From: Labia minor
Taxonomy: Eukaryota > Arthropoda > Insecta > Dermaptera > Spongiphoridae
Direction of reading: 5' to 3'
Assembly (NCBI GenBank): GCA_963082975.1
Contig: OY720347.1
Coordinates: forward strand, 45,955,155 to 46,019,154
Length of the DNA stretch: 64,000 nucleotides
Shown: positions 11,301-51,675 of the stretch, piece after piece
How the letters are laid out: each line of letters begins with the position of its first letter
Numbering within the stretch: position 1 is the stretch's first letter
Notes under the pieces: generated by a model
Told to the model about the DNA's origin: nothing
The model's database searches: none
The model's input: the letters and a program-made list of their open reading frames with translations, nothing else
Position numbers and translations under genes: made by a program

Positions 11301-11927
11301 ACCGACCGACGATAGTAAGGGAGGTATTGTTTTCACACCAAATTTCACATGTGGAGATTTTTACATATCTCCACGAATCATGCATTTTCTTAACAGAAAA
11401 AAAGTATTTTTAGCATGATGTCTGTCCGTCCGTCCGTCTGTCCGTATAGATGTGTACAGCCTGAACGGCTCAACCGATTTTGATGAAATTTGGTATATTT
11501 ACTTAATTCATCAGTGGGATGAATTGATCAACTTTTGGTGCAAATCCGGAAACCGGAAGTGGTAGTATTAGCAATCGACGATAGGAAGGGAAGGGTTATT
11601 TTCACACCAAAGGAGATTTTTTTATATATCACCACAAATCATGCACTTTGTATTGGTTTTATCCTCGGGAAAATCATATTTATTAGTTTTTTCTTGATTT
11701 AAAATTATATGACGTCATCCAGCCATTCATGACGTCACAGCCTGGTCTTGCATATATATTATAAATAAAATAAAATTAAAAATGTTTATATTTATTATTT
11801 ATGTATCCATATCTGTTTTTTATTACATTAATAGATATATTAAAATTATTTGAAATTGTTTCTGTAGTTGGAAATTAATTTACTTCAAACCGTCGGTCGG
11901 TTCGGACCTGGCCACAGGTCAACTTAT
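11301..11927 (+). mobile_element. Family-1 HINE-like element, copy A
   Basis: A non-autonomous element, complete at both ends. It starts ACCGACCGACGATAG after a T run. An internal hairpin GTGGAGAT/ATCTCCAC is followed by a GTCY microsatellite (about 11424-11446) and then a second, diverged copy of the 5' module (about 11571-11660). Two TGACGTCA octamers lie at 11710-11738. Near the end is the inverse of the 5' end (CGTCGGTCGGT), then the hairpin GACCTGGCCACAGGTC and the tail AACTTATT. Flanking T on both sides fits T-T insertion. This plan (5' end inverted upstream of a 3' palindrome, GTCY microsatellite) is that of INE-1/DINE-1 and other Helentron-associated elements. Mobilisation would need a Rep/helicase encoded elsewhere. 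Confidence 0.85.
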
Positions 11928-12350
11928 TTTACCCCGGATTGGGTCGGCAGTCGTAGATGGAACTTCTCCACATAGAGCTTGAAGGGAACTGATTGTCTGT
12001 AGACTGCAGTAATTGACACTGACCATCTGAAGTTCAAACTAGTGTTACCTATGCAGTCTATAAAGTCTAAATTTTCTTTAAAATGTGTACCATATATCCA
12101 AAATCTCTCCAATCTTCACCTGGGTATTTCACTGTATGTCCAATGTCTCGCTCGGCTTAAAAATGGACGTCGGTGACAAACGGGTTTTCCTGGAGATCTT
12201 TAAAAAAAAATCTCAAATGAACCTCAATCTTCAGGTTATTTAATGACCCCTTGAGAAATGTTCTAGTGCTAATAGCAACTTAGAAAAAAATAAGAAACAA
12301 AAAGAGTGTCCAGAGTTTTCCACTCTCTTCTATATATATAACATTATTCA
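11928..12350. other. Moderate-complexity island, unassigned
   Basis: The first ~200 bp read open on the minus strand (11924-12112, 62 residues) with unusually balanced composition. The frame has no homology I recognise and begins right at a repeat boundary. It may be a host exon fragment or another repeat. Confidence 0.3.
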
Positions 12351-13975
12351 TTTTTTTACAAACGGTATTTATAAACAAAACTATAAAATTATGTATTAGA
12401 AATAAAATATATATTTTAAAATACAATTTATGCTAATAATTATAATAGAAAATGTTATATTGTTAGTTTCTTTTGGGTTTGTATAAATTAAAAAAAAAAT
12501 TATTTGTAGTAGATTATTTGATTTCAAAAGTAATATAAATAAATTCCTATTTAGATACCAGGATTATTAAATGCTCTCTTGCCTAAAGGTATCAAAACAG
12601 ATTTACTTTTGATTACGTTGCTAGAGGTAGGGGGTGGGTCATGAAATGAATCATGGATTCTAGAGCCGGGGGCATTGAAAGTCGATTTCTCAATGTAGAT
12701 GAAAATTAGATTCTCAGCTTTAAATACAAAACAAATTTTCTTCATAAATTACAATATTAAAACAGAAGTAATTTTGACTTCTGGGAGTAAATAACATATA
12801 CAACATGTTCATTGATTTTTCAAAACAAAAAATATAAACATCAGAATACGAACGAATACTGATAGGAAAAAAAAATAGCTATTTAATACGATTTTATATA
12901 TATATTCATATATATAAATCTTATTTTCATTACGTTTTAATATTGATTTGTTCCATGATAATTAAATATGTATATTTCTTTTATATAATAATTTCTAATT
13001 TAATAAAATAATAATTAATTAACAAATAAAGTTACAATCATTAATCATAATTATTATTAATTTAATTTCTACTTTAATATTCCATTATAAAATAATTATA
13101 ATATTCAAGAAATATCTAAAACTCGTTAACAAAATTTATTCTTAAATAAAAATACGTAAAAATTCCATTACATTTGTTAAAACTCATTTATTTAGACTCG
13201 GTATCATTTAAAAGTGGATTTTCTTTAAAATTTAAAATTCGAATTTTTGAGAAAATTAACTTTACCATCTGTTAGACAAAGAATGCTTATGGTTAGGTCA
13301 AATGGAGAAGTTTACCTTTGGATACATTATTGGCTTCCTATTATTTATTGAGTTTTAAACTTAAGTAACAAAGTAACTTATGTATCTTTAGTTACTAGTA
13401 TAAAATACTTATATTTATAAGAATTTATTCATTAATTTTTATTAAATATATAAGGTGAAGCCAAACCTAAGTATTCTTATTAGAATTAGTACTTTCATTT
13501 AATTATTTTTGTAAAACAAAGATTAAGTATTTCGATTAGGATTAATTTATACTATGCTTGGGAAAAATTAAGAGAACTGCAATACGGTTTTTACTATGAA
13601 ATTTCATAATACTACTCAAATTTTAAGTCCTATTTAAAGATACATAAACATATAGGAAAAGAAATTTAATTGAGAGAAAATATAAAATAATTAATTCATA
13701 ATATTAATAATAATTTTATAAGTAGGCAAAAGATATGTTTCAAAATATATAGTCATTAAACATTAAAGATTAATACCACTTAAAATATATAAAAAATATT
13801 TGTTCATATACTTGTAATTAATTTAACGATACTGGCAAAAAAATGATTTAAAAACTCAATTAACTCAATGAAACTCTTAATAAATAATATTTGGTTTAAT
13901 TTATTTATTAACTGAATAATTCCTTTAAACAATTTTAAATAAATTATATTTTTAAAGGTCTATATTTTAAGACGC
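12351..13975. other. AT-rich DNA, no gene supported
   Basis: A small complex patch at 12550-12740 has an open minus frame of 64 residues but no recognisable family. The rest is low-complexity AT sequence. Confidence 0.45.
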
Positions 13976-14265
13976 CACCAAGTCTGTGGCAACACAATGA
14001 GCTCTCATCCTCGTGGTTCCGGGTTCAAATTCCGGACCTGGCAAGTGAATTTCCCTCTACGTGGTGTTTATGGTATCGTGGTCAACCCAGCCTATGTAAT
14101 CAAAATTGGAAAGTTATTTGAAATAAAAAGCAATGACGTTGGATCAAGAAAATCAAGATGAAGGTTGAAAGGATACGTTGTGCTGATCACTAATTACCTC
14201 TACCCCGCTTAGGCAGACCCATCTTATTAGTTGCTTGTCTTTCATAGGATATCCAGACATATTTT
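13976..14265 (+). repeat. tRNA-derived SINE, candidate
   Basis: The head has an A-box-like TGGCAACACAATG (13986-13998) and a B box GGTTCAAATTC (14022-14032) within CCGGGTTCAAATTCCGG, which forms a TpsiC-type stem. About 230 bp of unrelated body follow, ending near a poly-T/A region. This is the layout of a Pol III-transcribed SINE. A full tRNA cloverleaf is not seen. Confidence 0.5.
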
Positions 14266-15464
14266 TTTTAAGATTTATATTTTATGAAATTGTAACTAAA
14301 TATATGAGCTACGAATCTTAAGGAATGGTTTCAAACATCACTAAATCTATGTACATATGTAAACATTTATTTATTAAAAAAAAATAAATTTATAAAAAAA
14401 ATAAAATTGACTAGATACCAACCAATCATTTTAGATTAGAGAAATTGATTTGGTGTTAACAATAATATCATAGTTTTTGGATTAATTTATATTGTGATAT
14501 AATATACTAATCTACAAGCAGCAAAATTATCAGCTAATCAGAAGTGGCATATTCAATAAAATTAATCATAACTAAATTAAACTAAAGAATTTAATAGGGA
14601 ATGAAATTTGTTATTTTTTTAAATATTAATCTAATAAATATTCCTCGAAGGATGTAAAATATATTTAAAATTTGTTTCAATATGTATTATATTATATTTA
14701 TGTTGAAACGCACCAGAGGAAATACAGTTCTGGCTCCCAATCAAATCATAATTGATTGAATCTTTATTCGTGTGTTCGAATGATGTTTGTCCAACAAATT
14801 AAATTGATATTTCATTTTTTTTTTTATTATAATGAAAATTATAAAACGAATAATTAACTTTACAGAACGTGCTTCTCTTTAACTTTCCATTTTCTTATAC
14901 AAAAAAATCATATTAAAATTTTCATTAAACAAAATTAATTCAAGTTCAGTTTATAAAGATAATATTTGATATTAATGGCTAAGCTATCAGTAATAAAATG
15001 TTATTTACATATGCTTGTGTTGGTTAGTTATCTTTATAGAAAGAGAACTTGAAAAAAATTCTTTCGTTTATTTTAGAAAGTAATTGTAAGTTGAAGTCTT
15101 GAAGTTCAAACATTGACAAAAAAAAAAAAATATTAAATTTGTCTGTCTAATTTTCTAATCGTTCATGATAAAGTAGAGCACAAACTCTATTGTCTTTTGG
15201 TGTTTTTTTTTTTAATATTTTTTTTGTAGTCTTTCTGATATTCACAAGGCAGAAAATCATTTTTTTTTCTTTTTTTTTAGTAAACCATTCATTCATCTTA
15301 ATATTCCAGACAAACGAATTCACTTTTGTATTTCTTTTCTTTCTCCTAAAGACAATAGATAAAGATGGCAATCCAAAATCCCTTGTTCTGGACAGAATTG
15401 AATTAGCACAAAGATGATTTCTTCTTTTATTTTATAAACAAACAATAATTCTTTTGATACTAAC
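14266..15464. other. AT-rich intron-like DNA
   Basis: Homopolymer-rich. The short ORFs at 15147-15417 on both strands are poly-T/A artefacts. Confidence 0.5.
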
Positions 15465-15583
15465 CTTCGAGCGTGCCTTGGAAGACGCGGGTAGCATCAT
15501 AGCTGATTTGACCTTTAGAAGTTTCGAATTCAGGGTTGTCTGCAAACACCTCCCGGTCAGGTAATAACGACATGCGAAACTCT
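15465..15583 (-). CDS. Internal exon of a host gene, ADAM10/Kuzbanian-like propeptide (candidate)
   Basis: On the minus strand a pyrimidine-rich tract ending TTTTTGTTACAG precedes a 119-nt open segment that ends GAAG followed by the donor GTTAGT. Inside are 39 full codons (1 nt carried in, 1 nt carried out), including FRMSLLPDREVF near the start and ISYDATRVFQGTLE at the end. The pattern F-R-M ... D ... F ... E-T-S ... Y-D-[AT] ... [IV]-[YF]-x-G-x-[IL] resembles the prodomain of ADAM10/Kuzbanian, a membrane metalloprotease that sheds Notch and other surface proteins. The assignment rests on memory of the family pattern and is not certain. Composition and wobble positions look like a real gene, unlike any neighbour. 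Flanking exons were not found. Phases rule out direct splicing to the candidate first exon at 34766 unless an alternative AG is used (AG occurs in tandem here). Confidence 0.6.
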
Positions 15584-15996
15584 CTGTAACAAAAAGAAAA
15601 TTATTAATTATTATTTACGAAATAAATAAATGATAATATAATCATAATATTTTTATTATGGATAGTTAATTAAAATAAATACACATATGCTAAAATAATT
15701 AAATACTTTGCTTTGTTAATTCAATTTTTTAAATCACTTGGAAAAATAATAAATATCCCAGGATTGGAATGTAATGAGTGTAAAATCCGTTTGAGTGCAT
15801 TAATGGCTTAAAAAGCTTTCACTTTTCAATGTCCATAAACATGAATTAGTTTATAATATCGAGTCAAATTGAAACAACAGCTTTTTGATTCGTAGTCTCT
15901 ATCAATTTTAAACTGAGAGGATAAATAAAATAATATAATTATTAATTAATTCCAACTAAAGTACATATTCGTCCTTCACCTATCCACAAACTACCC
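15584..15996. other. Intron-like AT-rich DNA
   Basis: Follows the exon acceptor on the minus strand. No other feature seen. Confidence 0.5.
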
Positions 15997-16004
15997 TTCT
16001 TCAC

Positions 16005-16429
16005 CAGGGCCGCCCTAACCACAGGGCTAATTGGGCTATAGCCCTAGGGCGCAATCCTTCTGGGGGTGGCATTTTTTATTGGTTTATATATTTTTTCTTA
16101 TTGTTAAATAGTAGTTTTATAGTAACCTCCAACCCGGAGTGACATCACTTCAAAGATTTGAATCATGCACATTCAAAATACATATCTATTTTTCTTATTC
16201 ATTATATCCGTATAAGCATTGAATAAATGATTTTAATAAGAATCCTAACAGCAGCGATAATTGTGCAGTTTGAAAATGTTGACATATAACATTTTCAACA
16301 CAAATGACACTGTTTCAAATTTTATTGAAAAGTGTCTTTATTTTACGTAAATTTATTAGAAAATTTTTTATGAAAAGGAGCGCAAAATTTTAGAACCCCA
16401 CGGGCGCCGAAAATCTTAGGACGACTCTG
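16005..16429. mobile_element. Non-autonomous hAT-type element with perfect 8-bp target duplication
   Basis: Ends CAGGGCCGCCCTAA and TTAGGACGACTCTG form imperfect terminal inverted repeats of hAT CAG...CTG type. Both sides carry TTCTTCAC (15997-16004 and 16430-16437), an exact 8-bp duplication as made by hAT transposases. The interior has no transposase, so mobilisation was in trans. Confidence 0.85.
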
Positions 16430-16631
16430 TTCTTCACATATCCTTTATTTATATTGTAACTATAGACCTAGGGATGAAGAAGTTTTATAACCTAAATAAA
16501 TTTTGATCCTCCTCAAAAAATAAATAATTAAAAATGAATTGTCACTTAATTAAGAGTTGAGTTAAGAAACAAGTTTTGAATCGATTATTTTTAAAAAGTT
16601 AAAATAATGTTTTTTTGAACTTTAATTTTTT

Positions 16632-16662
16632 ACCGACCGACGATAGTAAGGGAGGTATTGTT
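16632..16662 (+). repeat. Solo 5' tip of a family-1 HINE-like element
   Basis: Exact match to the first 31 bp of the family (ACCGACCGACGATAG through GGTATTGTT), after a T run. Similarity stops sharply there. Confidence 0.8.
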
Positions 16663-16951
16663 ATAATTAAAAAAAATCTTCGTTGTATGTTGGTGTATAT
16701 TTATTTATTTATTTTTTTAATAAAGATTCGTTAGAAGTTTAATCGTAACGCAAGAAAAAGATTTAACATATAAATCCTATTTTCTTGGTTCGATGGTTTT
16801 CCGCAAGGATACTAACATCACGAACGAAAACAACTATAAATTACAAGTAGTATTTCACCTTTCATTTTAATAAATATTTATTGTGACTCTTACGCGATTT
16901 TTTTTAAATTTTATTTTTCTTCTTAATATTGAAGGGATAATATAACATAAA
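16663..16951. other. AT-rich DNA
   Basis: Nothing recognised. Confidence 0.45.
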
Positions 16952-17597
16952 AATAAGTTGACCTGTGGCCAGGTCCGAACCGACCGACTGTTTGAAATAA
17001 ATTAATTTCCACCTACAGAAACAATTTCAAATAATTTTAATATATCTATTAATGTAATAAAAAACAGATATGGATACATAAATAATAAATAAAACATTTT
17101 TAATTTTATTTTATTTATAATATATATGCAAGACCAGGCTGTGATGTCATGAATGCCTGGATGACGTCATATAATTTTAAATCAAGAAAAAACTAATAAA
17201 TATGATTTTCCCGAGGATAAAACCAATACAAAGTGTATGATTCGTGGTAATATATAAAAAAATCTTCTTTGGTGTGAAAATAACCCTTTCCTTCCTATCG
17301 TCGATCGCTAATACTACCACTTCCGGTTTCCGGATTTGCACCAAAAGTTGATCAATTCATCCCACTGATGCATTAAGTAAATATACCAAATTTCATCAAA
17401 ATCGGTTGAGCCGTTCAGGCTGTACACATCTATACGGACGGACAGACGGACAGACGGACGGACAGACGGACGGACAGACATCATGCTAAAAATACTTTTT
17501 TCTGTTTAGAAAATGCATGATTCGTGGAGATATGTAAAAATCTCCACATGTGAAATTTGGTGTGAAAACAATACCTCCCTTACTATCGTCGGTCGGT
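16952..17597 (-). mobile_element. Family-1 HINE-like element, copy B
   Basis: Full-length, reverse orientation. It has the 3' hairpin at 16960-16975, a long GTCY-type microsatellite (about 17436-17478), both 5'-module copies, and the 5' terminus ending GTCGGTCGGT at 17597. One of the two TGACGTCA octamers is mutated to TGATGTCA. The 3' subterminal repeat reads CCGACCGACTG, one base off the consensus. Confidence 0.85.
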
Positions 17598-18912
17598 AAT
17601 TAGTAAAAGCAGAAAAAATATATTTTTTAATTATATTAATTATGATTAGCAAAATGTGTATATAAGAGAGAAAAGAATTAATAATAAAAATAATAATTCT
17701 AAAAGCTTTTAATTGTGAATTAGTTGTTAAAAAAAATAAATATTTTTTTATTGTTGAGACCTGGTTTACTAAAAACTGACATGAAGTTATCAACATAATT
17801 AAATATTTATGATTATAAAATATTAATATAATAATAATAAATTATATTTAGAATAGATCATAAAAAGAAAAATATATTTTCAACCGATGCTCGGAACAAT
17901 AAAAAACCGTTTAGAAGGAGAGTTTCTGCCATATTGTTTTTGAAATTATGAACTAAATAGAGTTATCTTCACAACAAAAATAAAACATAATAATATAAAG
18001 TAAAGTAAATAATAACAGTAATTTTGAATGGATAGAAACAAATTTCTCTTTATATATTCGATTATTATTAAATGACAATGATTATATATTATTCAAGTCA
18101 TGGGATATTAAAAATCTATGTAAATTTATTTGAATAATAGAATTTTTCTTTTATTTATTATAAAAATACTGAAAATAGCAATAGAACATTTCCATATTGC
18201 GGAATACCTCAAAGAAACATTCCAAGAATCTTTAAGAATTAAAATCAATGAATATGAATTAGAAATCAACATTATTATATATTCTACCTCTACACATGTG
18301 AATATCGTTAATATAGAAAGCAAATTGTTCATAATAGTTTTATCTTAATTGATTATATTTTTCATCTTACTTCTTTTTAATTTCTATTAGTCTAGTTTCT
18401 CTGTCAACTAATTTTGCTAGGGCTTAGTATTCAAATTAAAATCTCTTATCACAGGCTTCCTTTAATTTTCCTTCTAAAAGATAAGATATTCTAATAATAT
18501 AAAATAAACTCCTCATGTGTTCTATTCTCTCAAGTTTATTTTAGAAAATTAATTTAAATAATCATTTAATTAATCATAGCTTTATGCATTATTCACTAAA
18601 CGATATAATATAAATATAATTAAATATCTAGAAGATAAGCACATAATTTGAGTACTTTTTCGAAGAAGTCTAAATATTAAGAGAGTAAATGATAATAAAT
18701 ATACTAAAATTGCTTGGGTATTTATAAATTATTATATCATTATATCGACATTCAAAATAATAATAATTAATATTAAATTTTTACTGACAAACATATTAGA
18801 TGATTATATGGAGAAATATTTATTTGGATATGTATGCTACCTGTAGAATTCGTTTGGCAATGTGATTGTATAACTTCCAGGGGAAAATATACTTTATTGA
18901 ATAGATATAGAT
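17598..18912. other. AT-rich DNA, no gene seen
   Basis: Overlapping AT-biased ORFs on both strands near 18126-18348 are not convincing. Confidence 0.5.
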
Positions 18913-18933
18913 CAGTGATCCCCAATCATTTTT

Positions 18934-19896
18934 ACCGACCGACGATTCCTATAAATTATTATTATTATTATTATTATTAATTTGTTTAATAGAATAATAT
19001 ACGTTAAATATTTAAATCTATAAAAAATGAATCCAAATGAGAAAAGATTGAAATATGAGTGAATATAGGAGAAGAAAGCTTAAGATAGAAACTGTTGTTA
19101 CTTAAAAATGATCATTGGTATACGAAAAATATTGTTTTCAAAGAATTATTTGATTAATTGCTGCAAACCACGATAAAATAAATTTGCAACGGGTTTGCCT
19201 AATATATTAAATATTATTTAAATGAGAATATCTTTTCAATTCGAACAAATTCTAAATTTCTTAAAGAAGAAAGATACTAATATTTTTACCGACCAACGAT
19301 AGTAAGGGAGGTATTGTTTTCACACCAAATTTCACATGTGGAGATTTTTACATATCTCCACGAATCATACATTTTCTTAACAGAAAAAAGTATTTTTAAC
19401 ATTATGTCTGTCCGTCCGTCCGTATAGATGTGTACATCTTGAACGGCTCAACGGATTTTGATAAAATTTGGTATATTAACTTAATGTATCAGTATGATGA
19501 ATTGTTCAACTTTTGGTTGAAAACCGGAAGTGGTAGTATTACGGATCGACGATAGGAAGGGAAGGGTTATTTTCACACCAAATTACACATAGGATTTTTT
19601 ACATATCTCCACAAATCATGCACTTTGTATTGGTTTTATCCTCGGGAAAATCATCTTCATTAGGTTTTTCTTAATTTAAAATTATATGACGTCACCCAGC
19701 CCTTCATGACGTCACAGTCAGCTTCCACTTATATATTATAAATAAAATAAAATTAAAAATATTTATGTTATATCCATATCTGATTTTTATTGCATTAATA
19801 GATATATTAAAATTATTTGAAATTGTTTCTGTAGCTGGAAATTAATTTATTTCAAACCGTCGGTCGGTTCTGCGCCTGGCCACAGGTCAACTTATT
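18934..19896 (+). mobile_element. Composite element: HINE 5' tip + ~340 bp extra DNA + full family-1 HINE
   Basis: Starts with ACCGACCGACGAT (13 bp of the family-1 5' end), then ~340 bp that recur at 48795-49155, then a full family-1 element (19288-19896). The duplicated block ends exactly at the HINE 3' terminus in both places. That suggests a rolling-circle unit that began upstream and used the HINE 3' hairpin as terminator. Confidence 0.55.
19288..19896 (+). mobile_element. Family-1 HINE-like element, copy K
   Basis: The 5' end reads ACCGACCAACG (one change). It has a short GTCY microsatellite, a second 5'-type module from about 19542, both TGACGTCA octamers intact, the subterminal CGTCGGTCGGT, the hairpin CCTG-GCCA-CAGG and the tail AACTTATT followed by C. 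It belongs to the subfamily with GGTTCTG before the hairpin, with copies J and L and the solo end at 8014. Confidence 0.85.
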
Positions 19897-25842: not shown

Positions 25843-26387
25843 AATAAGTTGACCTGTGGCCAGGTCCGAACAGACCGACGGTTTGAAGTAAATTAATTTC
25901 CAGCTACAGAAACAATTTCAAATAATTTTAATATATCTATTAATGTAATAAAAAACAGATATGGATACATAAATAATAAATATAAACATTTTTAATTTTA
26001 TTTTATTTATAATATATATGCAAGACCAGGCTGTGACGTCACGAATGGCTAGATGACGTCATATAATTTTAAATCAAGAAAAAACTAATAAATATGATTT
26101 TCCCGAGGATAAAACCAATACAAAGTGCATGATTCGTGGTGATATATAAAAAAATCTCCTCGTGTGAAATTTGGTGTGAAAATAACCCTTCCCTTCCTAT
26201 CGTCGATCGCTAATACTACCATTTCCGGTTTCCGGATTAGCACCAAAAGTTGATCAATTCATCCCACTGATGCATTAAGTAAATATACCAAATTTCATCA
26301 AAATCAGTTCAGCCGTTCAGGCTGTACACATCTATACGGACGGACAGACGGACGTTCAGACATCATGCTAAAAATACTTTTTTCTGT

Positions 26388-26724
26388 TGTAAGAATAATA
26401 TTGGCGACTAATAATAAAAATAAAAATAGATACGGATTAAATATAAAATTATATTTAATTATTTACAATATATACAAGAACATAAGTGATAAAGAAACGC
26501 ATAAACAACATAAAAAATTACATAAGGGCTTAACATAAGTTTTATTATCATAAGGAGCGTATGCAATCTTAATCATAACATAACATGCATAACATCTAAA
26601 AATATAACGAGAGAGCTTCAACTCGAAAGTTCGAGAAGGTATCCCATCATTCCGTGCGCTTTCTCCCGCACGAATTCAAATGACATATTTTTAAATTTTA
26701 TATATTAACAAAAAAAAGCTTACA
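26388..26724 (-). repeat. 3' LTR (337 bp)
   Basis: Nearly identical to 28338-28674. Starts TGTAAGAATAATATTGG on the plus strand and ends GCTTACA. Confidence 0.95.
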
Positions 26725-26803
26725 ACTTCGGCCAATCTGACTTTTTGATCGTCCTCGATCAATTCTTCATATCCATTACAGAATCACATTTTGATTACAT
26801 AAA

Positions 26804-28273
26804 TTATACATAAGAATTAACACTATAGAGTTTAAACAAAATTAACAATATCCATTTGCATATATCCAAATCATAAGTCAATCTGAGATTGAATACTTTC
26901 TCGCCAAGGGTTTTTTCTTTTTTTTTTTTAAATTTAAATTTACCTAATTGATCAGCAATTAATGGCAAAGGAAACCGATCCTTTTCACATTGTTTTTTAA
27001 GTTCGCGATAATCAACGCATAATCTGATTTCACCTGATTTTTTTTTGACCAAAACAATTGGCGATGAATAAGCAGAATTACTTTCTTTAATTGTTCCCTT
27101 AGCGATTAAGTCGTCAATCTCGTCCTGCAGCTGTCTTAATTCATAGTAAGATACTCTCCTAGGCCTGAAATTAAAACATTTATGATTATTTATAGGCTTA
27201 ATGTCAACCTCTTGTTTATGCTGAGGTTCAGCAGGTTTTTCACAATTTAAATAAGTGTTTAAAACATTTTCTAATTCATTATTATCGTTTATATTTAACT
27301 GAGGAGACGTTTTCACTTCCTCACTATCTATCATCATAAGTGAATTAATTTCTTCATCTAATTTAGAATGTTTCACTGGAATGTTCACGTCGACAAAATC
27401 AGCAGGTACTACATTAATTTCTTCATCTAATTTAGAATGTTTCAGTGGAATGTTCACGTCGACAAAATCAGTAGGTACTACATTAATTTCTTCATCTAAT
27501 TTAGAATGTTTCACTGGAATGTTCACGTCGACGAAATCAGCAGGTACTACTTGAACTGGTGTTTCGATTACCAAAGTTGAAGATGACGATGCTGGCTGGT
27601 CGGGCTTTTTGTTATTTGGACAAGCAGAAACCTTATGTCCAAATTCTTCTATAAGATGTTCTTTAAGTTGGTTAAATGTCATAATGCCTTTGGTCGCTTG
27701 GATAAAGAGTTTTGCTAGCCCTGACAAGGACTTTTTGCCATAAATTAGTCTTTCCAAGTCGCTCCAGCCCATAAGTTGCGATATTTCTTCAAAATCACTT
27801 ATCCACGTTTTGATTTGATAAGAATTATCTCCAGAAAACGGTCGAATAGAATCTTGAAGGTCTCTAAAGCTCATGACCACTTTGGGTATTGATGATGAGT
27901 GAGTTGAATGATCTTCTTCAACTTCTTCATCAGTAGTATAATCCTCTTCCAATCTTTGCTCCATAAGGTTGTTTAAATCAGATAAACATGAGCAAAGTCT
28001 CTTGGCCAATTCATTTATATCACCGTCAGTACTAATATTAAGTAAGTGGCAACAGTTGCTTAGTTTTTCCTTAGAAAAATCATTAATAATTTGAGCGCAC
28101 TTACTTGTAAATTCTGTGGATTGGTCATCATAGCCAAATCCTTCGAATTTTAAAATTTTTCCTCTGTTTAACTTTTGTCCTTTTCCAAAAAGTAGTAAAA
28201 ACAGGTCAAAGGCAATTTCTGGTAATGCACTCTTGATAAGTTTTTTAACAAGTTCGGAGTCGCCTAATTTCAT
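26804..28273 (-). pseudogene. Gag fused to the N-terminal part of RT, truncated polyprotein
   Basis: 489 codons starting MKLGDSELVKKLIKSAL, 64 bp inside the 5' LTR. Residues ~1-150 are an uncharacterised Gag N-terminus with an acidic linker. About 150-225 resembles a retrotransposon gag core (motifs IKTWISDFEEISQLMGW and FNQLKEHLIEEFG). About 240-310 holds three tandem 23-residue repeats (PADFVDVNIPVKHSKLDEEI). About 375-455 is the start of reverse transcriptase, with the conserved RLCVDYRELKK and FPLPLI, and stops there. The catalytic YxDD, RNase H and integrase are gone, and the last ~35 residues are unrelated hydrophobic sequence read from across the deletion. A protease Asp-Thr/Ser-Gly site is not seen. 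The ORF is otherwise open, consistent with recent deletion. Confidence 0.85.
27344..27550 (-). repeat. Three tandem 69-bp repeats within gag
   Basis: Copies start at 27344, 27413 and 27482, with only a few base differences. They keep frame and encode 23 residues each. Confidence 0.95.
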
Positions 28274-28337
28274 ATTGAAAATTGCACGGGTTGATTAAAA
28301 TATTTTTTTTTTAATCAGTACCCCACACCTGATAAAT

Positions 28338-28674
28338 TGTAAGAAAAATATTGGCGACTAATAATAAAAATAAAAATAGATACGGATTAAATATAAAATT
28401 ATATTTAATTATTTACAATATATACAAGAACATAAGTGATAAAGAAACGCATAAACAACATAAAAAATTACATAAGGGCTTAACATAAGTTTTATTATCA
28501 TAAGGAGCGTATGCAATCTTAATCATAACATAACATGCATAACATCTAAAAATATAACGAGAGAGCTTCAACTCGAAAGTTCGAGAAGGTATCCCATCAT
28601 TCCGTGCGCTTTCTCCCGCACGAATTCAAATGACATATTTTTAAATTTTATATATTAACAAAAAAAAGCTTACA
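28338..28674 (-). repeat. 5' LTR (337 bp)
   Basis: Partner of 26388-26724. One A/T difference is seen, near its plus-strand left end. The adjacent interior sequence on the minus strand (ATTTATCAGGTGTGGGG) does not give an obvious PBS for a common tRNA. Confidence 0.95.
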
Positions 28675-28770
28675 CTGTTAAGAAAATGCATGATTCGTGG
28701 ATATATGTAAAAATCTCCACATGTGAAATTTGGTGTGAAAACAAAACCTCCCTTACTATCGTCGGTCGGT

Positions 28771-30617: not shown

Positions 30618-31246
30618 AAATAAGTTGACCTGTGGCCAGGTCCGAACCGACCGACGGTTTGAAATAAATTAATTTCCAGCTACAGAAACAATTTCAAATA
30701 ATTTTAATATATCTATTAATGTAAAAACAGATATGGATATAACATAAATATTTTTAATTTTATTTTATTTATAATATATAGCTGAAGTAGCCGGCTGTGA
30801 CGTCATGAAGGGCTGGGTGACGTCATATAATTTTAAATTAAGAAAAACATAATGAAGATGATTTTTCCCGAGGATAAAACCAATACATTCGTGGTAATAT
30901 GTAAAAAAATCTCCTTATGTGAAATTTGGTGCGAAAATAACACTTCCCTTCTTATCGTCGATCGCTAATACTACCACTTCCGGTTTCCGGATTTGCACTA
31001 AAAGTTGATCAATTCATCCCACTGATGCATTAAGTAAATATACCAAATTTCATCAAAATCCGTTAAGCCGTTCAGGCTGTACACATCTATACGGACGGAC
31101 AGACGGACGGACAGACGGACGGACAGACATCATGCTAAAAATACTTTTTTCTGTTAAGAAAATGCATGATTCGTGGAGATATGTAAAAATCTCCACATGT
31201 GAAATTTGGTGTGAAAACAATACCTCCCTTACTATCGTCGGTCGGT
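30618..31246 (-). mobile_element. Family-1 HINE-like element, copy G
   Basis: Complete at both ends. The 3' hairpin at 30627-30642 has a canonical stem. Both TGACGTCA octamers are intact (30797-30825). There is a long GTCY microsatellite (31093-31128), and it ends GTCGGTCGGT then a T run (in reverse). Confidence 0.88.
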
Positions 31247-40625: not shown

Positions 40626-42463
40626 ATAGTCTATGATTACATCATTTGACTTGATTAATTAATCTATTAATCTAATTAAAATATGTTTCAAAGATATTCG
40701 ACATATCGTATTTTTTAAACACTTTTTCTAATGATAATCTGATGATTGGTTTATTCTAAGATATTTTATTCTATTTGTTTAATCTTAATGCAATCTTAAT
40801 AATCGCTGTAATACTAAAAAGTGAGTTGTTCTAGAAGAAGAGACGCCAAGGATGATAAATTGTCAAATCTGGTTCGCTGGCTCTTTATCAGGAAGAATCA
40901 AATGAGCGTCCTGAGGCAGTAAATCTTTACAACTGTCTGAAGTTGTGGTTGGACAAGTTTGAACTGAATTGTTTGAATACAAGACATCTATCTAAGCCTT
41001 CACTCTATCCCCTTGACTCTACCTTGCAAACCTTAGAACAATACCTATAAAACTCTTTCGTTTCAAAAATATTCAAATAAGGTTGTTTAGTTATAAATAA
41101 AATAGTAAATTAATTTATTAAAATGTTAGTATAAGAATATAGTATAAAAAAATATATATTTCTGTATATATAGACACACTAAACTTAAAATAAAATAAAT
41201 ATTTTTAAAATTCATTTTTAAAGTAAATAAAAAAAACAAATTAGAAAAAAAAAACAAAAAGAAATTCAAGATTTTAACAAATTGATTGAAATAAAATAAA
41301 ATAATAATTTTAATATTTCTTAATTAGGGAAAAATTCTAATTTTTCAGATAATTAATTTCATTTTTGATTTCATGATTGATTCATTCCCTCTCAATTCCT
41401 TCGGGATATGGATAAATATTTCAATGTGAAATCGATAATCAATCAATCCAGATTAAAAATTTATTTTCAGAAAGGAATTCATTCTATTAATTCATTGATT
41501 TTTTTTATTTAGTTCTACTATAAAATTCTTTCACATTTGTTTTATACAATATAATTTAAGAAGATCTATTGGGGAGTCTATTTGTCACTAGATATTACAA
41601 TAGAACTGAGCTTATGCATATTCAAAGAAAGGACAATAAGGCACGAATAAAGGTTGACCGATTTACTGGATTCAGTGCCAAATGTCTCTAATTCTCAAGA
41701 GGAAAATCCACAGAACAACTTCCTTTCCATTCATTTGTTCTGATTTAGAATACTAGTCTTGAACTATCGTAAACATTCCGTAAATTTAAACTGAACTATT
41801 TATTTCAAAAGTAAATTTTTATTTTTTTTTTCTTAAATATTTATAATGTAAATTTATAATAAAATAAATTCTATTATATATATAATTTTTCCTAAAGTTT
41901 TTTAATAGATATTCCAATGAAAGATTAATATTATTTTTCTTAGTGGAACAATTTAGTAGATAAGTTCAAACAAATAAAAATATGTATATTTATACAAAAG
42001 GTCACAGGTCGAAAGAAGATTTACATAAACCATTAAATAATAATATTTACGTATTTATATTTTAATTAAAATGATCTACAAAGGATTACAAAAAAGAAAA
42101 GAATTTTTTTTTTATTTTTTAATGGAAGATTTGTAGTTAAAATAAATATTGATTAATATATATCTTATCTTATTATACTTGCAAAAATTATATATATTTG
42201 TATTTTTGATATATTAAACCGCTCTAAGTTTTTTTTTTTTTTGGAAATTCATACTATATATAATTTTTATAAAGGAAAATCGATCAGTATTGGTTTCAGC
42301 CGCGGGAAAAATCATCTTTGTTAGTTTTTTCTTAATTTAAAATAGGAATTTTAATAATAAAAAAATTGGCACCAAGCAACGCAATACAGCGCTTCCTTAA
42401 ATACAAAATATTCAAATCAAATTACTATTACGGCTCGATGAACAGGTATATACTATATATTAA
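40626..42463. other. AT-rich DNA, no gene seen
   Basis: Moderately complex patches (40830-41050, 41570-41770) without ORFs. A short HINE-like scrap (GGGAAAAATCATC...TTTTTTCTTAATTTAAAAT) lies at 42305-42345. Confidence 0.4.
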
Positions 42464-44443: not shown

Positions 44444-45391
44444 CGATTAATTGAAAAATTCCGAGAGACAGGATCCGTGGGAGACGCCAAACACACTGGT
44501 CGTCCAAAAACAAGCCGTTCAAATGTCAATATAGAGGCAGTGCGTGCGAGTGTCGGTGACAATCCAGGAACCTCAATTCGGCGTCGTGGACAAGAATTGC
44601 AAATTTCAAGAAGCTCTCTACAGCGTATACTCACTAAAGATCTGTGTCTCCATGCTTACAAAATTCAATTAACACAACTACTGAAGCCCAATGACCATGC
44701 ACAGCGAAGAGAGTTTGTTGAATGGATTACTGAGCAACAACAAATGAATGCTGATTTTTCGAGCAAACTCATCCTAAGCGACGAAGCACATTTTCACCTT
44801 GATGGCTTTGTTAATCGCCAAAATTGCCGCTTTTGGGGTTCTGAAAATCCACATGTGATTGTCGAAAAACAAATGCATCCACAACGTGTCACAGTTTGGT
44901 GTGCATTTTGGGCTGGAGGCATAATTGGACCATACTTTTTTGAAAATGAGGCTGGTCAAGCAGTGACTGTTACTTCTGCTCGATATCGCGACATGATAAC
45001 ACGGTTCTTTTTGCCGAAATTAGATGATATTGATGTGGCTAATATGTGGTTTCAACAAGACGGTGCCACATGCCATACAGCCCGTGAAACACTTCAATTA
45101 CTGCATGAGACATTTCCAGGTCGTGTACTCTCTCGTTTCGGTGATCAGAATTGGCCCCCTAGATCGTGTGATTTAACACCATTAGATTTCTTTTTATGGG
45201 GATATCTAAAATCACAGGTCTACGTCAATAAGCCCACAACTACGCGTGCATTAAAGGAGGAGATTCAACGTTGCATCAACGAAATTCAGCCACATTTATG
45301 CAGAACGGTCATGGAAAATTTCGACAAACGAGTGCGTATGTGTATGCAAAGCCGCGGAGGCCATTTGCCCGATGTGTTATTCCATAAATAA
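44444..45391 (+). CDS. Mariner-type (DD41D, rosa-like) transposase, N-terminally truncated
   Basis: Continuous frame from just after a TAG at 44441-44443 to TAA at 45389-45391. The only early start-like codon is GTG at 44477; numbering here is from it. Residues ~1-60 are the second half of the DNA-binding region, with a GRPK linker motif and a second helix-turn-helix (SISRSS-type). A DDE endonuclease domain follows. Catalytic residues are D102 (SDEAHFH), D195 (QQDGATCH) and D237 (CDLTPLD), with 41 residues between the second and third. That spacing defines the DD41D group of the IS630-Tc1-mariner superfamily. The catalytic triad and the rest of the domain are intact with no internal stop. The first helix-turn-helix (~40-60 residues) is missing, as is an ATG. 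The protein would cut and join DNA at terminal repeats if whole. As found it is probably not translated normally. Confidence 0.9.
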   Translation, partial: RLIEKFRETGSVGDAKHTGRPKTSRSNVNIEAVRASVGDNPGTSIRRRGQELQISRSSLQRILTKDLCLHAYKIQLTQLLKPNDHAQRREFVEWITEQQQMNADFSSKLILSDEAHFHLDGFVNRQNCRFWGSENPHVIVEKQMHPQRVTVWCAFWAGGIIGPYFFENEAGQAVTVTSARYRDMITRFFLPKLDDIDVANMWFQQDGATCHTARETLQLLHETFPGRVLSRFGDQNWPPRSCDLTPLDFFLWGYLKSQVYVNKPTTTRALKEEIQRCINEIQPHLCRTVMENFDKRVRMCMQSRGGHLPDVLFHK

Positions 45392-45497: not shown

Positions 45498-45605
45498 ATA
45501 AGCTTAATGCGCATTTCGGTTGTTACACCATTATCAAAAGCTTACCCGAAACCAATAGATGTAATTGATACTTTAATAACGGAAATGCGCATAAAGCTTA
45601 AATAT
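45498..45605. repeat. ~108-bp hairpin inside the mariner 3' region
   Basis: Arms ATAAGCTTAATGCGCATTTC (from 45498) and the inverse ending AAATGCGCATAAAGCTTAAA (45583-45602) pair over ~28 bp with a few mismatches. The loop is ~48 bp. It could be a tiny MITE inserted near the mariner end. Confidence 0.7.
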
Positions 45606-45678
45606 CAATAAACATGAGAGTTTACCGGGTGTTTAATTAAAAATTATTTTAATCATGTTCTAAGTTCAATTTTAGTTT

Positions 45679-46177
45679 ACATAAAATAAGAATAAAAATT
45701 TATTACAAATAATTGAAATAAATACCTAGGCCTATTTTTTTAATTCCATTTAATAGATTTGACATATATATATATATATATATATTAATCAATATTTATT
45801 AAAATCTTAAAAATTAAATGATCTTATTTATTGAAACCTATTTGAGTCGTTTTCATATAATATTAAAGTAAACCTCACTTTTCATTTACTTCTAAATAGT
45901 TCTATGGGGTTGGTGGCAGATATATATATGCATAGATCATTTTTTCTGATTCAATGAACATTGTAATTGTGTTAGTGAATAAATAAACAATTTAAAGTAC
46001 TTATAATTAATCAGGTATAACTCAAAGGTTTATTGATTAGAGTTTTGATTAAAAACAAAAACAAAATAAGATACAAACTAATTTTATACTAAAAAAGTGT
46101 ATTTCATATAAGTGTATAACTGATTAAAAAAAATTGTATATCTATAAATATTTGCCTATTTATATAAACCGAAATAG
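45679..46177. other. AT-rich DNA
   Basis: (TA)n at about 45764-45785. No gene. Confidence 0.45.
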
Positions 46178-46829
46178 AATAAGTTGACCTGGGGCCAGGT
46201 CCGAACCGACCGACGGTTTGAAATAAATTAATTTCAAGCTACAGAAACAATTTCAAATAATTTTAATATATCTATTAATGTAATAAAAAACAGATATGGA
46301 TAGAACATAAATATTTTTAATTTTATTTTATTTATAATATATAGCTGAAGTAGCCGGCTTTGCCCGAGGCTGTGAAGTCATGAAGGGCTGGGTGACGTCA
46401 TATAATTTTAAATTAAGAAAAACATAATGAAGATGATTTTTCCCGAGGATAAAACCAATACATTCGTGGTGATATGTAAAAAAATCTCATTATGTGAAAT
46501 TTGGTGCGAAAATAACCCTTCCCTTCTTATCGTCGATCGCTAATACTACCACTTCCGGTTTCCGGATTTGCACCAAAAGTTGACCAATTCATCCCACTGA
46601 TGCATTAAGTAAATATACCAAATTTCACCAAAATCCGTTAAGCCGTTCAGGCTGTACATATCTATACGGACGGACAGACGGACAGACGGACGGACAGACG
46701 GACGGACAGACATCATGCTAAAAATACTTTTTTCTGTTAAGAAAATGCATGATTCGTGGAGATATGTAAAAATCTCCACATGTGAAATTTGGTGTGAAAA
46801 CAATACCTCCCTTACTATCGTCGGTCGGT
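46178..46829 (-). mobile_element. Family-1 HINE-like element, copy H
   Basis: Complete. Its hairpin reads GACCTGGGGCCAGGTC, where a loop change extends the stem to seven pairs. One octamer is altered (TGAAGTCA) and one is intact. It has a long microsatellite and a canonical 5' end at 46829, and carries a small insertion (TTTGCCCGAGGC) near 46359. Confidence 0.88.
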
Positions 46830-47337
46830 AAAAATGAATAGAAATTACAAATTATAATAAATAAAAATGAAGAATTATTATAATAATAATAAAATTCTTA
46901 ATAAATATTAATGTATTATTCAAAAGACTGTAATAAAAGGTAAAAATAATTTATATACTTTTTTTTAAAAAGATTCATTATTACTTTAAAAGTCCAGGTA
47001 AACAAATGAAACAGTTAAAAAAAACAAATTCTAAAATTTTTTTCTTAAATTAAATATTTGATTAATTTTTATTTTTGTCAAAATATATTTTATTTTATTT
47101 TTAAATGTTTTAAAATTGTTATTTATATTAACAAAAATGCTTCTGTTTTTATATCAAGCAATCATTAAATCTTAAAGAGATAAATTGGGATGTTGACCCG
47201 AATATAAAATCACCTTCCATTAATTATCATACAGTTCTGTCTTTACTAAATATGTATATATATATACTATATATAATTTCTTTTTTTACATAAAATATTC
47301 TCATGCTTATATTATGTTTATTAAACAGTTTGTTTTT
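46830..47337. other. AT-rich spacer between two inverted HINE copies
   Basis: About 508 bp with no gene. The 5' ends of copies H and I face each other across it. Confidence 0.5.
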
Positions 47338-47969
47338 ACCGACCGACGATAGTAAGGGAGGTATTGTTTTCACACCAAATTTCATATGTGGAGATTTTTA
47401 CATATCTCCACGAATAATGCATTTTCTAAACAGAAAAAAGTATTTTTAGCATGATGTCTGTCCGTCCGTCCGTCCGTCCGTCCATATAGATGTGTACAGC
47501 CTGAACGGCTCAACCGATTTTGATGAAATTTGGTATATTTACTTAATGCATCAGTGGGATGAATTGATCAACTTTTGGTGCAATTCCGGAAACCGGAAGT
47601 GGTAGTATTAGCGATCGACGATAGGAAGGAAAGGGTTATTTTCACACCAAAGGAGATTTTTTTATATATCACCACGAATCATGCATTTTGTATTGGTTTT
47701 ATCCTCGAAAAAAATCATATTTATTAGTTTTTTCTTGATTTAAAATTATATGACGTCATCCAGCCATGCATGACGTCACAGCCTGGTCTTGCATATATAT
47801 TATAAATAAAATAAAATTAAAAATGTTTATATTTATTATTTATGTATCCATATCTGTTTTTTATTACATTAATAGATATATGAAAATTATTTGAAATTGT
47901 TTCTGTAGCTGGAAATTAATTTATTTCAAACAGTCGGTCGGCTCGGACCTGGCCACAGGTCAACTTATT
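47338..47969 (+). mobile_element. Family-1 HINE-like element, copy I
   Basis: Complete, plus orientation. It has a GTCY microsatellite at about 47456-47483, both octamers intact, the subterminal repeat CAGTCGGTCGG with one change, the canonical hairpin and the tail AACTTATT. Confidence 0.88.
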
Positions 47970-48279
47970 TAATATTTATTAATAATTCAATGTTTTTAAT
48001 ATTTAATTATAGGGAAACAGGCAAAATATAAAATAAAATGAGTTTTTCTTATTTAAAAAAGGATTGGTTATCCAAATGAAAAATTGTGTTATAAATAAAT
48101 CGTTTATTTATATTATATGTAGATGACTAATAACTATTTTATATTTATTTTAACTACGTATATTAAATACAAATTTTGTATATTAAAAACCATATAAAAT
48201 AAATATTGAAAGTTTTTTCTTATAAAAATTATTAATATAATATTTAATATTAAAATAATAATAAGTTAGATTATAAACA
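47970..48279. other. AT-rich DNA
   Basis: Nothing seen. Confidence 0.4.
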
Positions 48280-48383
48280 AATAATTTATATAACCTTATT
48301 ATATCTATCTCTGTCCAAACAGCCTTACCCTGAGCTACTTTCATCCAACTCCTATTCTCTCCCGATTTCTTCAAGTCTTTCAT
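48280..48383 (-). pseudogene. LINE ORF C-terminal relic, candidate
   Basis: Minus strand reads DLKKSGENRSWMKVAQGKAV followed by WTEIDI, similar to the final D-L-x-x-x-G...W...AQDR...W segment of arthropod LINE ORF2 proteins. It is very short and without a 3' tail. Confidence 0.4.
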
Positions 48384-48420
48384 ACTTTCATTGCATTATT
48401 AATTAATTATGTATAATCTA

Positions 48421-48590
48421 TAATAATAATTTCCATCGTATGTATGTGATATCTGTAACATGTGAAGTTAGTTACAAATTCAGTTTAAACTTAAATTGTA
48501 AACACTATTTGCGGCGGGTTCGTCTAGTCTTTAATAATAATTTCCGTCGTATGTATGTGGTATCTATAACATTACGAAGTTAGTTATAAA
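48421..48590 (+). repeat. Two-copy tandem repeat, 111-bp period
   Basis: TAATAATAATTTCCRTCGTA and the following ~58 bp occur at 48421-48480 and 48532-48589. The spacer (GTTTAAAC...GCGGCGGGTTCGTCTA) is related to a segment at 49025-49072. Confidence 0.7.
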
Positions 48591-48794
48591 TTGTGCAAAT
48601 TAATTTAATTTGTAACTAACTTCATTTTTTAAAAATTTTGTTTTGTTAAATTAAATATATAGTTTAAATAAATAAATAAATATATAATTTAAGTGTCAAA
48701 TACAAAAAATAAAAAAATTATTACGACGATTTGAATAAAGTTAATAATTTTATATTTAAATATTGTTGTTTTGTAAGTATTTGAAACAAAAAAT

Positions 48795-49732
48795 TTCCTA
48801 TAAATTATTATTATTATTATTATTAATTTGTTTAACAGAATAATATACGTTAAATATTTATATCTATAAAAAATGAATCCAAATGAGAAAAGATTGAAAT
48901 ATTAGTGAATATAGGAGAAGAAAGCTTAAGATAGAAACTGTTGTTACTTAAAAATGATCATTGGTATACGAAAAATATTGTTTTCAAAGAATTATTTGAT
49001 TAATTTCTGCAAACCCCGATAAAGTAAGTTTAAACTGAAATTGCAAACACCATTTGCAACGGGTTTGCCTAATATATTAAATATTATTTAATTGAGAATA
49101 TCTTTTAAATTCGAACAAATTCTAAATTTCTTAAAGAAGAAAGATACTAATATTTTTACCAACCAACGATAGTAAGGGAGGTATTGTTTTCACACCAAAT
49201 TTCACATGTGGAGATTTTTACATATCTCCACGAATCATACATTTTCTTAACAGAAAAAAGTATTTTTAGCATGATGTCTGTCCGCCCGTCCGTATAGATG
49301 TGTACAGCTTGAACGGCTCAACGGATTTTGATAAAATTTGGTATATTTACTTAATTCATCAGTATGATGAAACCGGAACTGGTAGTATTACCGATCGACG
49401 ATATGAAGGGAAGGGTTATTTTCATAGTAAATGAGGAGATTTTTTACATATCTCCACGAATCATGTACTTTGTATTGGTTTTATCCTCGAGAAAAATCAT
49501 CTTCATTAGTTTTTTCTTAATTTAAAATTATAAGATGTCAGCCAGCATTTCATGAATTCACAGCCAGCTTATATATTATAAATAAAATAAAATTAAAAAT
49601 ATTTATGTTATATCCATATCTGTTTTTTATTGCATTAATAGATATATTAAAATTATTTGAAATTGTTTCTGTTTACTTAATTTATTTCAAACCGACGGTT
49701 GGTTCTGTACCTGGCCACAGGTCAACTTATTT
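48795..49732 (+). mobile_element. Second copy of the composite HINE unit
   Basis: 48795-49155 is a close copy of 18946-19285, followed by family-1 copy L with the same ending. It lacks the 13-bp 5' tip and has ~24 extra bases near 49029, which resemble the upstream tandem repeat. Confidence 0.7.
49158..49732 (+). mobile_element. Family-1 HINE-like element, copy L
   Basis: The 5' end is ACCAACCAACG (two changes). It is shorter between microsatellite and second module than other copies. Both octamers have decayed (GATGTCA; TGAATTCA). The hairpin CCTG-GCCA-CAGG and tail AACTTATT are intact. It is the most eroded full copy. Confidence 0.85.
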
Positions 49733-50466
49733 AATTTTTTTATTGATTTTTTTTTAAATCATTTAGCATTTACACAATGTATCGCGTTGATTTCGTTATA
49801 GACTTTATAAAATTAAATTATTTCTACATCAAGAATTTAAAATCTTGTACAAACAATTCACCAATCTGTTTTGTACTGTTTTAGTATTGGAAGTATGCAA
49901 CTTCCTATATAAACAACATTAATCAATGTTGATAGGATATAACTTAGATAATTGTAATTTATATGATATTATTTATATATTCGTTTATTTATTTAGTTAG
50001 TAAAAATAAATAACCAGAAAGATGAGAGAGTATTCTTATGGATTTACAATTTTCTCTTTAAGTATGAATGAGATCCGTACCATAGATTTGAATTGAATTA
50101 AAGTTAGAATTTCTATAAGATAAGTAAGATCTCTAGATAAGTATTCAAAGTATTTCTAAAAAATTCGAATCTCTTCAGATTTCGCATAAGAGAAATTATA
50201 ATTATAATTATCACATGAAGTAAATTTTAATTTTATTATTAGTGCTATATTTTAATTTGAATAAATGATTTTTCAATGAAATATATAACTATCTAACCTT
50301 GTTCAATAATAAGTCCGTTTTCTGGTTTAATAAAAAAACTTTTACTATAGCATTATTTCAATACCTTATATTACGTCGTTATTATTTAATGACGTAAGCG
50401 AGAGAACAAATTTACGTTGTTATACTATGTTTACTTGTTTGTTTACTCTAATTTTATTAGAAGTTT
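49733..50466. other. AT-rich DNA, nothing seen
   Basis: No coding or repeat signal. Confidence 0.45.
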
Positions 50467-50690
50467 TTAATTTTTAGGAAGTAACCCCACACTTCTCCTA
50501 GTATCTCTATTCTGAGCCACAACCCTCCTCCCTACCCTACCGTCCCATCCTACATTATCCACCCACCGCGTCCTTGGTCTTATAAGCGGGCGTTTCCCGC
50601 TCGGTCTCCCCACCAATAAATTTTCCTCATTCATTCCTCTCCCATTCTGGCCACGTGTCCTGTCCATCGCAGCATTCTCGATTTTATAAT
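50467..50690 (-). pseudogene. LINE ORF C-terminal relic
   Basis: Minus strand, 66 codons: NEENLLVGRPSGKRPLIRPR, then TRWVDNVGWDGRVGR and VAQNRDTRRSVG, which match the arthropod LINE pattern GKRPLGRPRxRWxDN...AQDRDxWR. The ORF is cut at both ends. GC content is well above its surroundings. Confidence 0.75.
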
Positions 50691-51083
50691 TCTATTTTAG
50701 GAAGCATCAGGATCATAAATTACCAATTTCCGAAAATATCGATTAAAAAAAAGGTAATCAGTAATAATATATTACTTTTAGGAATAAAATAATCTTAGTG
50801 GTGGCTGAATATAGTCAATCAACTCTAAATCAACTTCTATCATAATGTTTGGTAGACTTTTAATATTTATATGATAATGAAGACGTTTCATAAAAAAAGA
50901 TAAAGAATGAAGAAAGAACAGTCCCAGGAGAACAATATCTTTAGAAGGAACATGGTGGAAAATATTCTCGAGCACCATTTGGATTATCGAAGATGACTCA
51001 TAAAGAATTCGAGTCATAAAATGTTTAACAAATATAACGCTATTTTTCCCCGCCCCTAAATGTACATAAAGAATTATAATATT
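50691..51083. other. AT-rich DNA
   Basis: The open minus frame 50778-51017 is not recognised. Confidence 0.4.
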
Positions 51084-51675
51084 AAATAAGTTGACCTGTG
51101 GCCAGGTACAGAACCAACCGACGGTTTGAAATAAATTAATTAAACAGAAACAATTTCAAATAATTTTAATATATCTATTAATGCAATAAAAAACAGATAT
51201 GGATATAACATAAATATTTTTAATTTTATTTTATTTATAATATATAAGTGTCATATAATTTTAAATTAAGAAAAAACTAATGAAGATGATTTTCCGATAA
51301 TAAAACCAATACAAAGTGCATGATTTGTGGAGATATGTAAAAAAATCTCCTCATGTGTAATTTGGTGTGAAAATAACCCTTCCCTTCCTATCGTTGATCC
51401 GTAATACTACCACTTCCGGTTTTCAGATATACACCAAAAGTTAAGAAATTCATCATTCTGATGCATTAAGTAAATACACCAAATTTCATCAAAAACCGTT
51501 GAGCCGTTCAAGCTGTACACATCCATTCGGACACACATCTATACGGACGGACAGACAGTCATGCTAAAAATACTTTTTTCTGTTAAGAAAATGCATGATT
51601 CGTGGAGATATGTAAAAATCTCCACATGTGAAATTTGGTGTGAAAACAATACCTCCCTTACTATCGTCGGTCGGT
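51084..51675 (-). mobile_element. Family-1 HINE-like element, copy J
   Basis: Complete ends. It belongs to the GGTTCTG subfamily. The octamer region is deleted (between about 51245 and 51255). It has a short microsatellite with an extra CGGACACACATC stretch. The 5' module and terminus are canonical. Confidence 0.85.

Follow-up and report, generated by a model that had tools for sequence, protein, structure and literature searches.

The 64,000-nucleotide window of the Labia minor genome analysed here (C5:45955155-46019154 of a 604-Mb, 71-contig assembly; G+C content 27.5%) holds nine near-full copies of a repeat that very probably represent one family of Helentron-associated INE-1-like elements (HINEs), which encode no protein and are carried along by a rolling-circle transposon of the Helentron/Helitron2 type. 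The ends of the family, its T-run target, the lack of any other target duplication at the examined sites, its copy number, the low divergence of the sampled copies and its insertion into itself were observed directly. An earlier note, made from the letters of the window alone, had proposed this class; its facts, with small corrections, and its class assignment were both supported. New in the present analysis are the genome-wide counts, the T5 target rule, the tests of element ends at empty and nested sites, the count of copies nested in the family's own T6 tract and a candidate chimera within the window.

Structure and abundance of the repeat family

A BLASTN search with copy c1 (11301-11928, plus strand, 628 nt, T6 before and TT after) as query returned nine copies in the window. 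Eight were aligned end to end, with identities of 83-100% and uninterrupted lengths of 574-652 nt: c1, c2 (16952-17597, minus, 646 nt), c3 (19288-19896, plus, 609 nt), c5 (30619-31246, minus, 628 nt), c6 (46178-46829, minus, 652 nt), c7 (47338-47969, plus, 632 nt), c8 (49158-49731, plus, 574 nt) and c9 (51085-51675, minus, 591 nt). The ninth, c4 (25843-28770, minus), is interrupted by a long terminal repeat (LTR) retroelement. All nine copies named in the earlier note were recovered, but two of its starts were off by one nucleotide, 30619 and 51085 being the true starts and the preceding base a flanking T. Both orientations are frequent, as had been claimed (four plus, five minus). The family makes up 9.35% of the window.

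The copies share one plan, given here from 5′ to 3′. A T run and ACCGACCGACG are followed by the block GATAGTAAGGGAGGTATTGTTTTCACACC, by GTCY repeats that vary in number and by conserved sequence surrounding GATTTTGATGAAATTTGGTAT. Near position 268 the 5′ block recurs in diverged form, its start degenerate (mostly AGCGATCGACG); an AT-rich part, CGTCGGTCGGT, a hairpin and AACTTATT complete the element, and target DNA comes next. When the eight uninterrupted copies were aligned together with 20 nt of flanking DNA, mean column identity was 86%. The ends had been placed at ACCGACC and the tail; AACTTATT was found in all nine copies and ACCGACCGACG in exact form in seven, while its inverse CGTCGGTCGGT is exact in four. 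These two 11-nt subterminal inverted repeats (subTIRs) are both perfect in three copies, and the remaining six carry one to four changes across both. The inverse repeat, described earlier as lying about 15 bp ahead of the hairpin, starts 14 nt and ends 3 nt before it, and its distance to the 3′ end of the element is 27 nt, hairpin included.

Short, abundant, non-coding copies with 11-nt inverted repeats near both ends might also be miniature inverted-repeat transposable elements, mobilised by a cut-and-paste transposase that acts on terminal inverted repeats. Here the 3′ repeat is not terminal, with those 27 nt and the hairpin beyond it, and no target duplication other than Ts was seen at the two empty and three nested sites described below; we consider this explanation very improbable.

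The copies show no sign of coding capacity: each stop-to-stop frame of 80 aa or more overlapping them (17509-17841, 26254-26535, 46549-46851 and 50781-51155) overruns an element end or enters the LTR insert. Together with the subTIRs, the 3′ palindrome, the GTCY run, insertion into T runs and the copy number, this matches the asymmetric HINE/INE-1-like plan suggested earlier; a clear 5′ inverted repeat is absent.

The hairpin is the 16-nt palindrome GACCTG GCCA CAGGTC, located 8 nt from the element end; it is exact in five of the nine window copies and has at most one mismatch in eight. DNA folding gave z-scores of -3.1 for c1, -1.3 for c3, -2.2 for c8 and -1.4 for an isolated 3′ fragment at 8016-8072. 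Across 27 3′ ends (15 distinct), 91.1% of the stem cells were paired; one stem pair was changed on both sides (CCTG/CAGG to CCCG/CGGG, in the 8016-8072 fragment) and one G-U form occurred. Support for the stem comes mainly from constant position and pairing, not from covariation. For a reconstructed bat Helitron, the 3′ hairpin is described in the excerpted account (PMC4778049) as a terminator that can be bypassed.

Genome-wide, the exact 16-nt hairpin occurs 18,582 times (9,322 in one orientation and 9,260 in the other) and the exact 31-nt 5′ end 21,217 times (10,616 and 10,601), with an even strand balance for both patterns. Reversed-pattern controls gave 0 and 0 matches for the hairpin and 0 and 0 for the 5′ end over the same genome, which excludes chance. 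A 23-nt family pattern had no match in bacterial and archaeal genome contigs, and three viral-contig matches of the 16-nt hairpin were judged to be chance from the length of the pattern.

A local sample of 200 kb of C1 was picked for density, so that neither its family share (5.0% of a 160-kb block and 9.2% of a 40-kb block) nor that of the window is a genome average. Among the C1 matches listed, 48 of 100 exact 5′ ends had an exact hairpin on the same strand 576-652 nt downstream, six had one at 338-350 nt (a short form), two at 284-285 nt and 12 at 945-3914 nt; 32 had none inside 4 kb, and many of these probably carry an altered hairpin. In an alignment of 21 full copies (c4 excluded), 14 differed from the consensus by at most 3%, three by 3.1-4.2% and four by 6.7-9.0%; 16 were within 4% and the farthest was at 9.0%. 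The family is young, very abundant and probably recently active.

Insertion into T runs

Seven of the nine window copies are preceded by at least five Ts, and TTTTT precedes 18,399 of the 21,217 exact 5′ ends in the genome (86.7%). A local set of 30 5′ ends, from which internal blocks had been filtered out (one, C1a 120648, is probably internal still), includes 24 that follow five or more Ts, 17 of them a run of exactly five; as background, T runs of length two or more that stand ahead of an A reach five in about 9% of cases. At the other end, of 27 cases, 18 continue behind AACTTATT with T, 7 with A and 2 with C. The earlier claim of T on both flanks held on the 5′ side of the window copies (TT in all nine), but on the 3′ side in only seven, two having C.

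Runs of exactly five Ts suggested that TTTTT might be a part of the element. This was ruled out: the uninterrupted sites examined already have a T run, and the Ts are therefore target and not cargo. The empty site at C1a 105009-105304 and its counterpart filled by the copy at C1b 21447 have an equal letter count in the T tract. A second, diverged pair consists of an empty site from C1b 3173 onward and the copy at C1a 9312, where the join differs by three letters in a T-rich tract (TTTTTATTT|TT vs eight Ts). Copies nested in an antisense T6 tract of another copy could be examined in the same way; the Ts are split 5+1 at locus L024 and 6+0 at L026, exactly six in each, and L025 has T5 plus one substitution (five Ts and one A), so that all three tracts have the length of the uninterrupted T6. 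At locus L032, a HINE copy sits in GTATTTTT^ATATTAAT, and an uninterrupted version of the same unit lies nearby. No target duplication beyond the letters of the T tract was found at the two paralogous empty sites, one of them diverged, or at the three self-nested copies, each inspected at both junctions.

Five Ts before 86.7% of the exact 5′ ends would also suit SINE-like (short interspersed nuclear element) retroposons whose poly-A tail is read on the opposite strand as a 5′ TTTTT. The Ts were, however, present in the target at the examined sites, target-site duplications are lacking, the other end is a fixed hairpin with AACTTATT, and fragments truncated on either side exist. We consider retroposition very improbable.

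Self-nesting and candidate chimeras

The junction AAATACTTTTT(N)ACCGACCGACGATAG, produced where a copy lies inside the antisense T6 of another copy, was found 464 times in exact form genome-wide (control 0), and the uninterrupted site AAATACTTTTTTCTGTTAAGAAAATG 12,909 times. Occupancy of the antisense T6 is thus about 3.5%. For an average run of at least five Ts it is about 0.26%: 264 kb contained 13.5 such runs per kb, which scales up to roughly 8.2 million for the 21,217 ends. The excess, about thirteenfold relative to runs of at least five Ts and about sixfold relative to runs of at least six only, is a lead rather than a rate, because the two patterns are not equally stringent, whole nests may have been duplicated and selection may purge insertions elsewhere. 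At L026 and L028 a second landing site was in use, the sense T tract (GGAGATTTTT) within the second block.

Two loci look like chimeras of the kind proposed for Fusarium Helitrons. At L028, an outer 5′ end after T5 is followed by the host element up to GGAGATTTTT and then by a full inner copy, and other DNA stands directly behind the inner AACTTATT (56 nt read). Such an arrangement would result if copying began at the outer 5′ end and ended at the first 3′ end, but also if the rest of the host was later deleted or displaced. The same locus contains, at 695-1438, a GTCY-bearing HINE unit repeated about four times in tandem inside one copy.

The second candidate lies in the window at 18934-19896 (plus strand) and comprises, behind TTTTT, a 13-nt HINE 5′ end (18934-18946), a piece of a dispersed repeat R, some 86 nt more and copy c3 in full length. 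The order of R, spacer and copy recurs at 48.7-49.7 kb with c8, where the upstream part common to c3 and c8 covers 48795-49157 and R runs on leftwards without interruption. Similarity between the two loci is bounded by the HINE 3′ end on one side and by the 13-nt 5′ end on the other. A genome search gave 896 candidates, 40 of which were scored; of these 40, the two loci alone reach the HINE, and two further scored matches end at 285 and 316 of 377. A simple 5′ extension of c3 was rejected as an explanation of 18934, most of the extra DNA being a piece of R. Repeat R ends 3′ in GCAAAC..GTTTGC, followed by CTAG in 5 of the 12 copies read, and by this 3′ end it looks like a canonical Helitron.

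It seems that one copy of the locus was made with HINE borders and took along DNA lying upstream of the 5′ end of its donor. The 13-nt end has a G where c3 and c8 have an A and was therefore probably not copied from the 5′ end of either; it may go back to a template switch from a different element or to a stub already present in the donor. We tentatively suggest, as a possibility we consider rather doubtful, that the family provides its own preferred landing pad, the antisense T6 about 100 nt from the 5′ end being used roughly ten times as often as an average T run, and that this together with a rule of stopping at the first 3′ end generates elements with stacked 5′ ends, including 18934-19896 with its DNA from upstream of the donor.

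Apart from the nine copies, at least six fragments of the family, which the earlier note had overlooked, and weaker AT-rich matches lie in the window. Besides the 13-nt end at 18934-18946 (plus), these are a diverged 5′ fragment (4762-4933, minus), the lone 57-nt 3′ end with the paired stem change (8016-8072, plus), a lone 31-nt 5′ end after T6 (16632-16662, plus), a 57-nt internal fragment of 87.7% identity (42287-42343, plus) and a diverged, lone 32-nt 5′ end after T5 (53409-53440, minus). The stubs at 16632-16662 and 53409-53440 and a third at C1a 125314 (L013) are 31-32 nt long, follow T5-T6, end in TTGTT(T) and have no family sequence directly behind them. They show that 5′ ends of the family can stand alone and are possibly aborted insertions.

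Rep-helicases, neighbouring elements and known systems

A profile search of the genome with PF14214 gave 104 matches in 126 candidates, and six Rep loci were read, three from long-frame families and three picked as likely Helentron type. Four (L031, L032, L033 and L034) carry the motif RGSPH, given as a Helentron signature in the part of PMC4067079 available; L029 and L030 carry RGLPH and are of the canonical Helitron type. L032 contains, at 895-7437 (minus), a stop-to-stop frame of 2181 aa with DUF6570, Rep (RGSPH) and PIF1 (E 1.9e-31). An endonuclease-like stretch matched Exo_endo_phos_2 at E 3e-4 and a C-terminal Ulp1-like stretch matched Peptidase_C48 at E 0.0033, both under the curated cut-offs; SENP8 chains matched the latter at E 0.017 and 0.036. 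The excerpts of PMC4067079 name OTU-type proteases, in contrast to the Ulp1/SENP-like stretch of L032. As judged from these domain matches, L032 would combine Rep, PIF1 and a C-terminal AP-type endonuclease in one protein, as Helentrons do, and is a candidate enzyme source. The HINE copy upstream of its Rep gene was considered as a shared 5′ end of that gene and rejected, the flanking repeat unit occurring uninterrupted; because this unit also exists without the HINE, the copy looks like an insertion and not like the gene's own end.

For the movement of the family we infer an enzyme, a strand transfer and a start-and-stop rule for chimeras. A Rep-helicase, perhaps with endonuclease, made elsewhere in the genome would recognise the 5′ end ACCGACC..., peel off one strand and halt at the end formed by subTIR, hairpin and AACTTATT. 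The copy would then enter a cut in the target, mostly behind five or more Ts, and nothing would be duplicated except perhaps Ts. A chimera would begin at the outermost 5′ end and halt at the first 3′ end.

Several observations weigh against assigning the family to the HINEs. Two of the nine window copies (c2 and c4) have only AATT upstream, and 13.3% of the exact 5′ ends in the genome are not preceded by TTTTT. A T duplication of 1-2 nt is indistinguishable from none; the excerpted text of PMC4067079 likewise allows a duplication of one or two Ts for HINEs. Covariation in the stem is weak, with a single paired change and 29 of 500 shuffles as good. The HINE upstream of the L032 Rep gene is 3′-truncated and lies in a repeat unit that also occurs without it. 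Within the stretches read of six loci, out of the 104 Rep matches, no autonomous element with both family ends was found. The earlier note had advised a search for a RepHel-endonuclease element sharing the ends. The genome does encode Rep-helicases of the Helentron type, and in one of them an endonuclease is weakly matched; both ends occur in none of the six loci within the stretches read.

The rolling-circle plan with a 3′ hairpin, and the presence in the genome of canonical Helitron-type genes with 1652-aa open frames and the RGLPH motif, would also suit non-autonomous canonical Helitrons (Helitron1). The family lacks a 5′-TC and a CTRR 3′ end, and its target is a T run and not A^T, so that this origin is even less probable than the two alternatives rejected above. 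The canonical family with 1652-aa open frames, which have equal scores at C9:43365333, C9:45506044, C10:14925745, C1:82181971 and C5:81088381, itself looks recently active. A series of broken Rep matches of like score was observed at C5:46739897-46792979 (minus), five of them spaced by about 9.8, 9.8, 5.7 and 5.7 kb.

Other mobile elements also occur in the window. The LTR retroelement within c4 (26388-28674, minus) has two 337-nt LTRs with one difference and a 4-nt duplication, ACAG, and looks like a recent insertion; its single 496-aa frame had no Pfam match above cut-off. A Ty3-like pol frame of 906 aa (2-2719, plus; reverse transcriptase, RNase H and integrase) runs off the left edge. A 315-aa Tc1/mariner-like transposase frame (44444-45388, plus) matched Sleeping Beauty by phmmer at E 6e-8, with no Pfam family above its own cut-off at E<=1. 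Seven window frames scanned with Pfam gave no family at 1e-3; three frames, two of those seven and the Ty3-like pol, were also scanned at E<=1.

As a family, this is one more HINE, and the published descriptions, available in excerpts, show where it agrees with known systems. HINEs of the mite Metaseiulus occidentalis (PMC4067079) share the subterminal inverted repeats, the 3′ palindrome, a T-rich target with flanking Ts and no target modification, and the lack of coding sequence. Their subTIRs are palindromic and set back from the element ends, by about 2-4 nt on the 5′ side and 38-60 nt on the 3′ side, whereas here the subTIR is non-palindromic, directly follows the T run and is 27 nt from the 3′ end. 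Partners are known for two mite subfamilies; here none was found in the six Rep loci read. Drosophila DINE-1/INE-1 (PMC4067079) agrees, as far as its description goes, in its non-palindromic subTIR, microsatellite, 3′ stem-loop, TT target and very high copy number. An inverted repeat beside the 5′ subTIR is present in DINE-1 and in the Cg_HINEs of the Pacific oyster, is not described for mite HINEs in the excerpts, and is not clear here (5′-end folding z-score -0.15); the feature varies within the HINE group. The Cg_HINEs (PMC7492417) share 11-12 bp subTIRs, GTCY-type microsatellites in the left flank, a 3′ palindrome and oligo-T sites, and their autonomous partner is likewise unlinked; they have central satellite-like arrays where the present family has a second copy of its 5′ block.

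The FoHelis of Fusarium oxysporum, which are Helitron2 elements, share the combination of several 5′ ends with one 3′ end, which PMC5148889, in the available part, explains by elements that inserted into themselves and were then mobilised as far as the first 3′ end; the Helitron2 target is quoted there as lying between TTTT and T or C. That account gives one nested example and a number of copies with multiple 5′ ends, whereas in the present genome a single T6 site accounts for 464 exact self-nested junctions. Having over 20,000 exact ends and low divergence (16 of 21 sampled full copies within 4% of the consensus), the family is a good natural data set for the study of Helentron target choice, and equally for the origin of multi-ended elements, which the excerpts of PMC5148889 propose from few examples.

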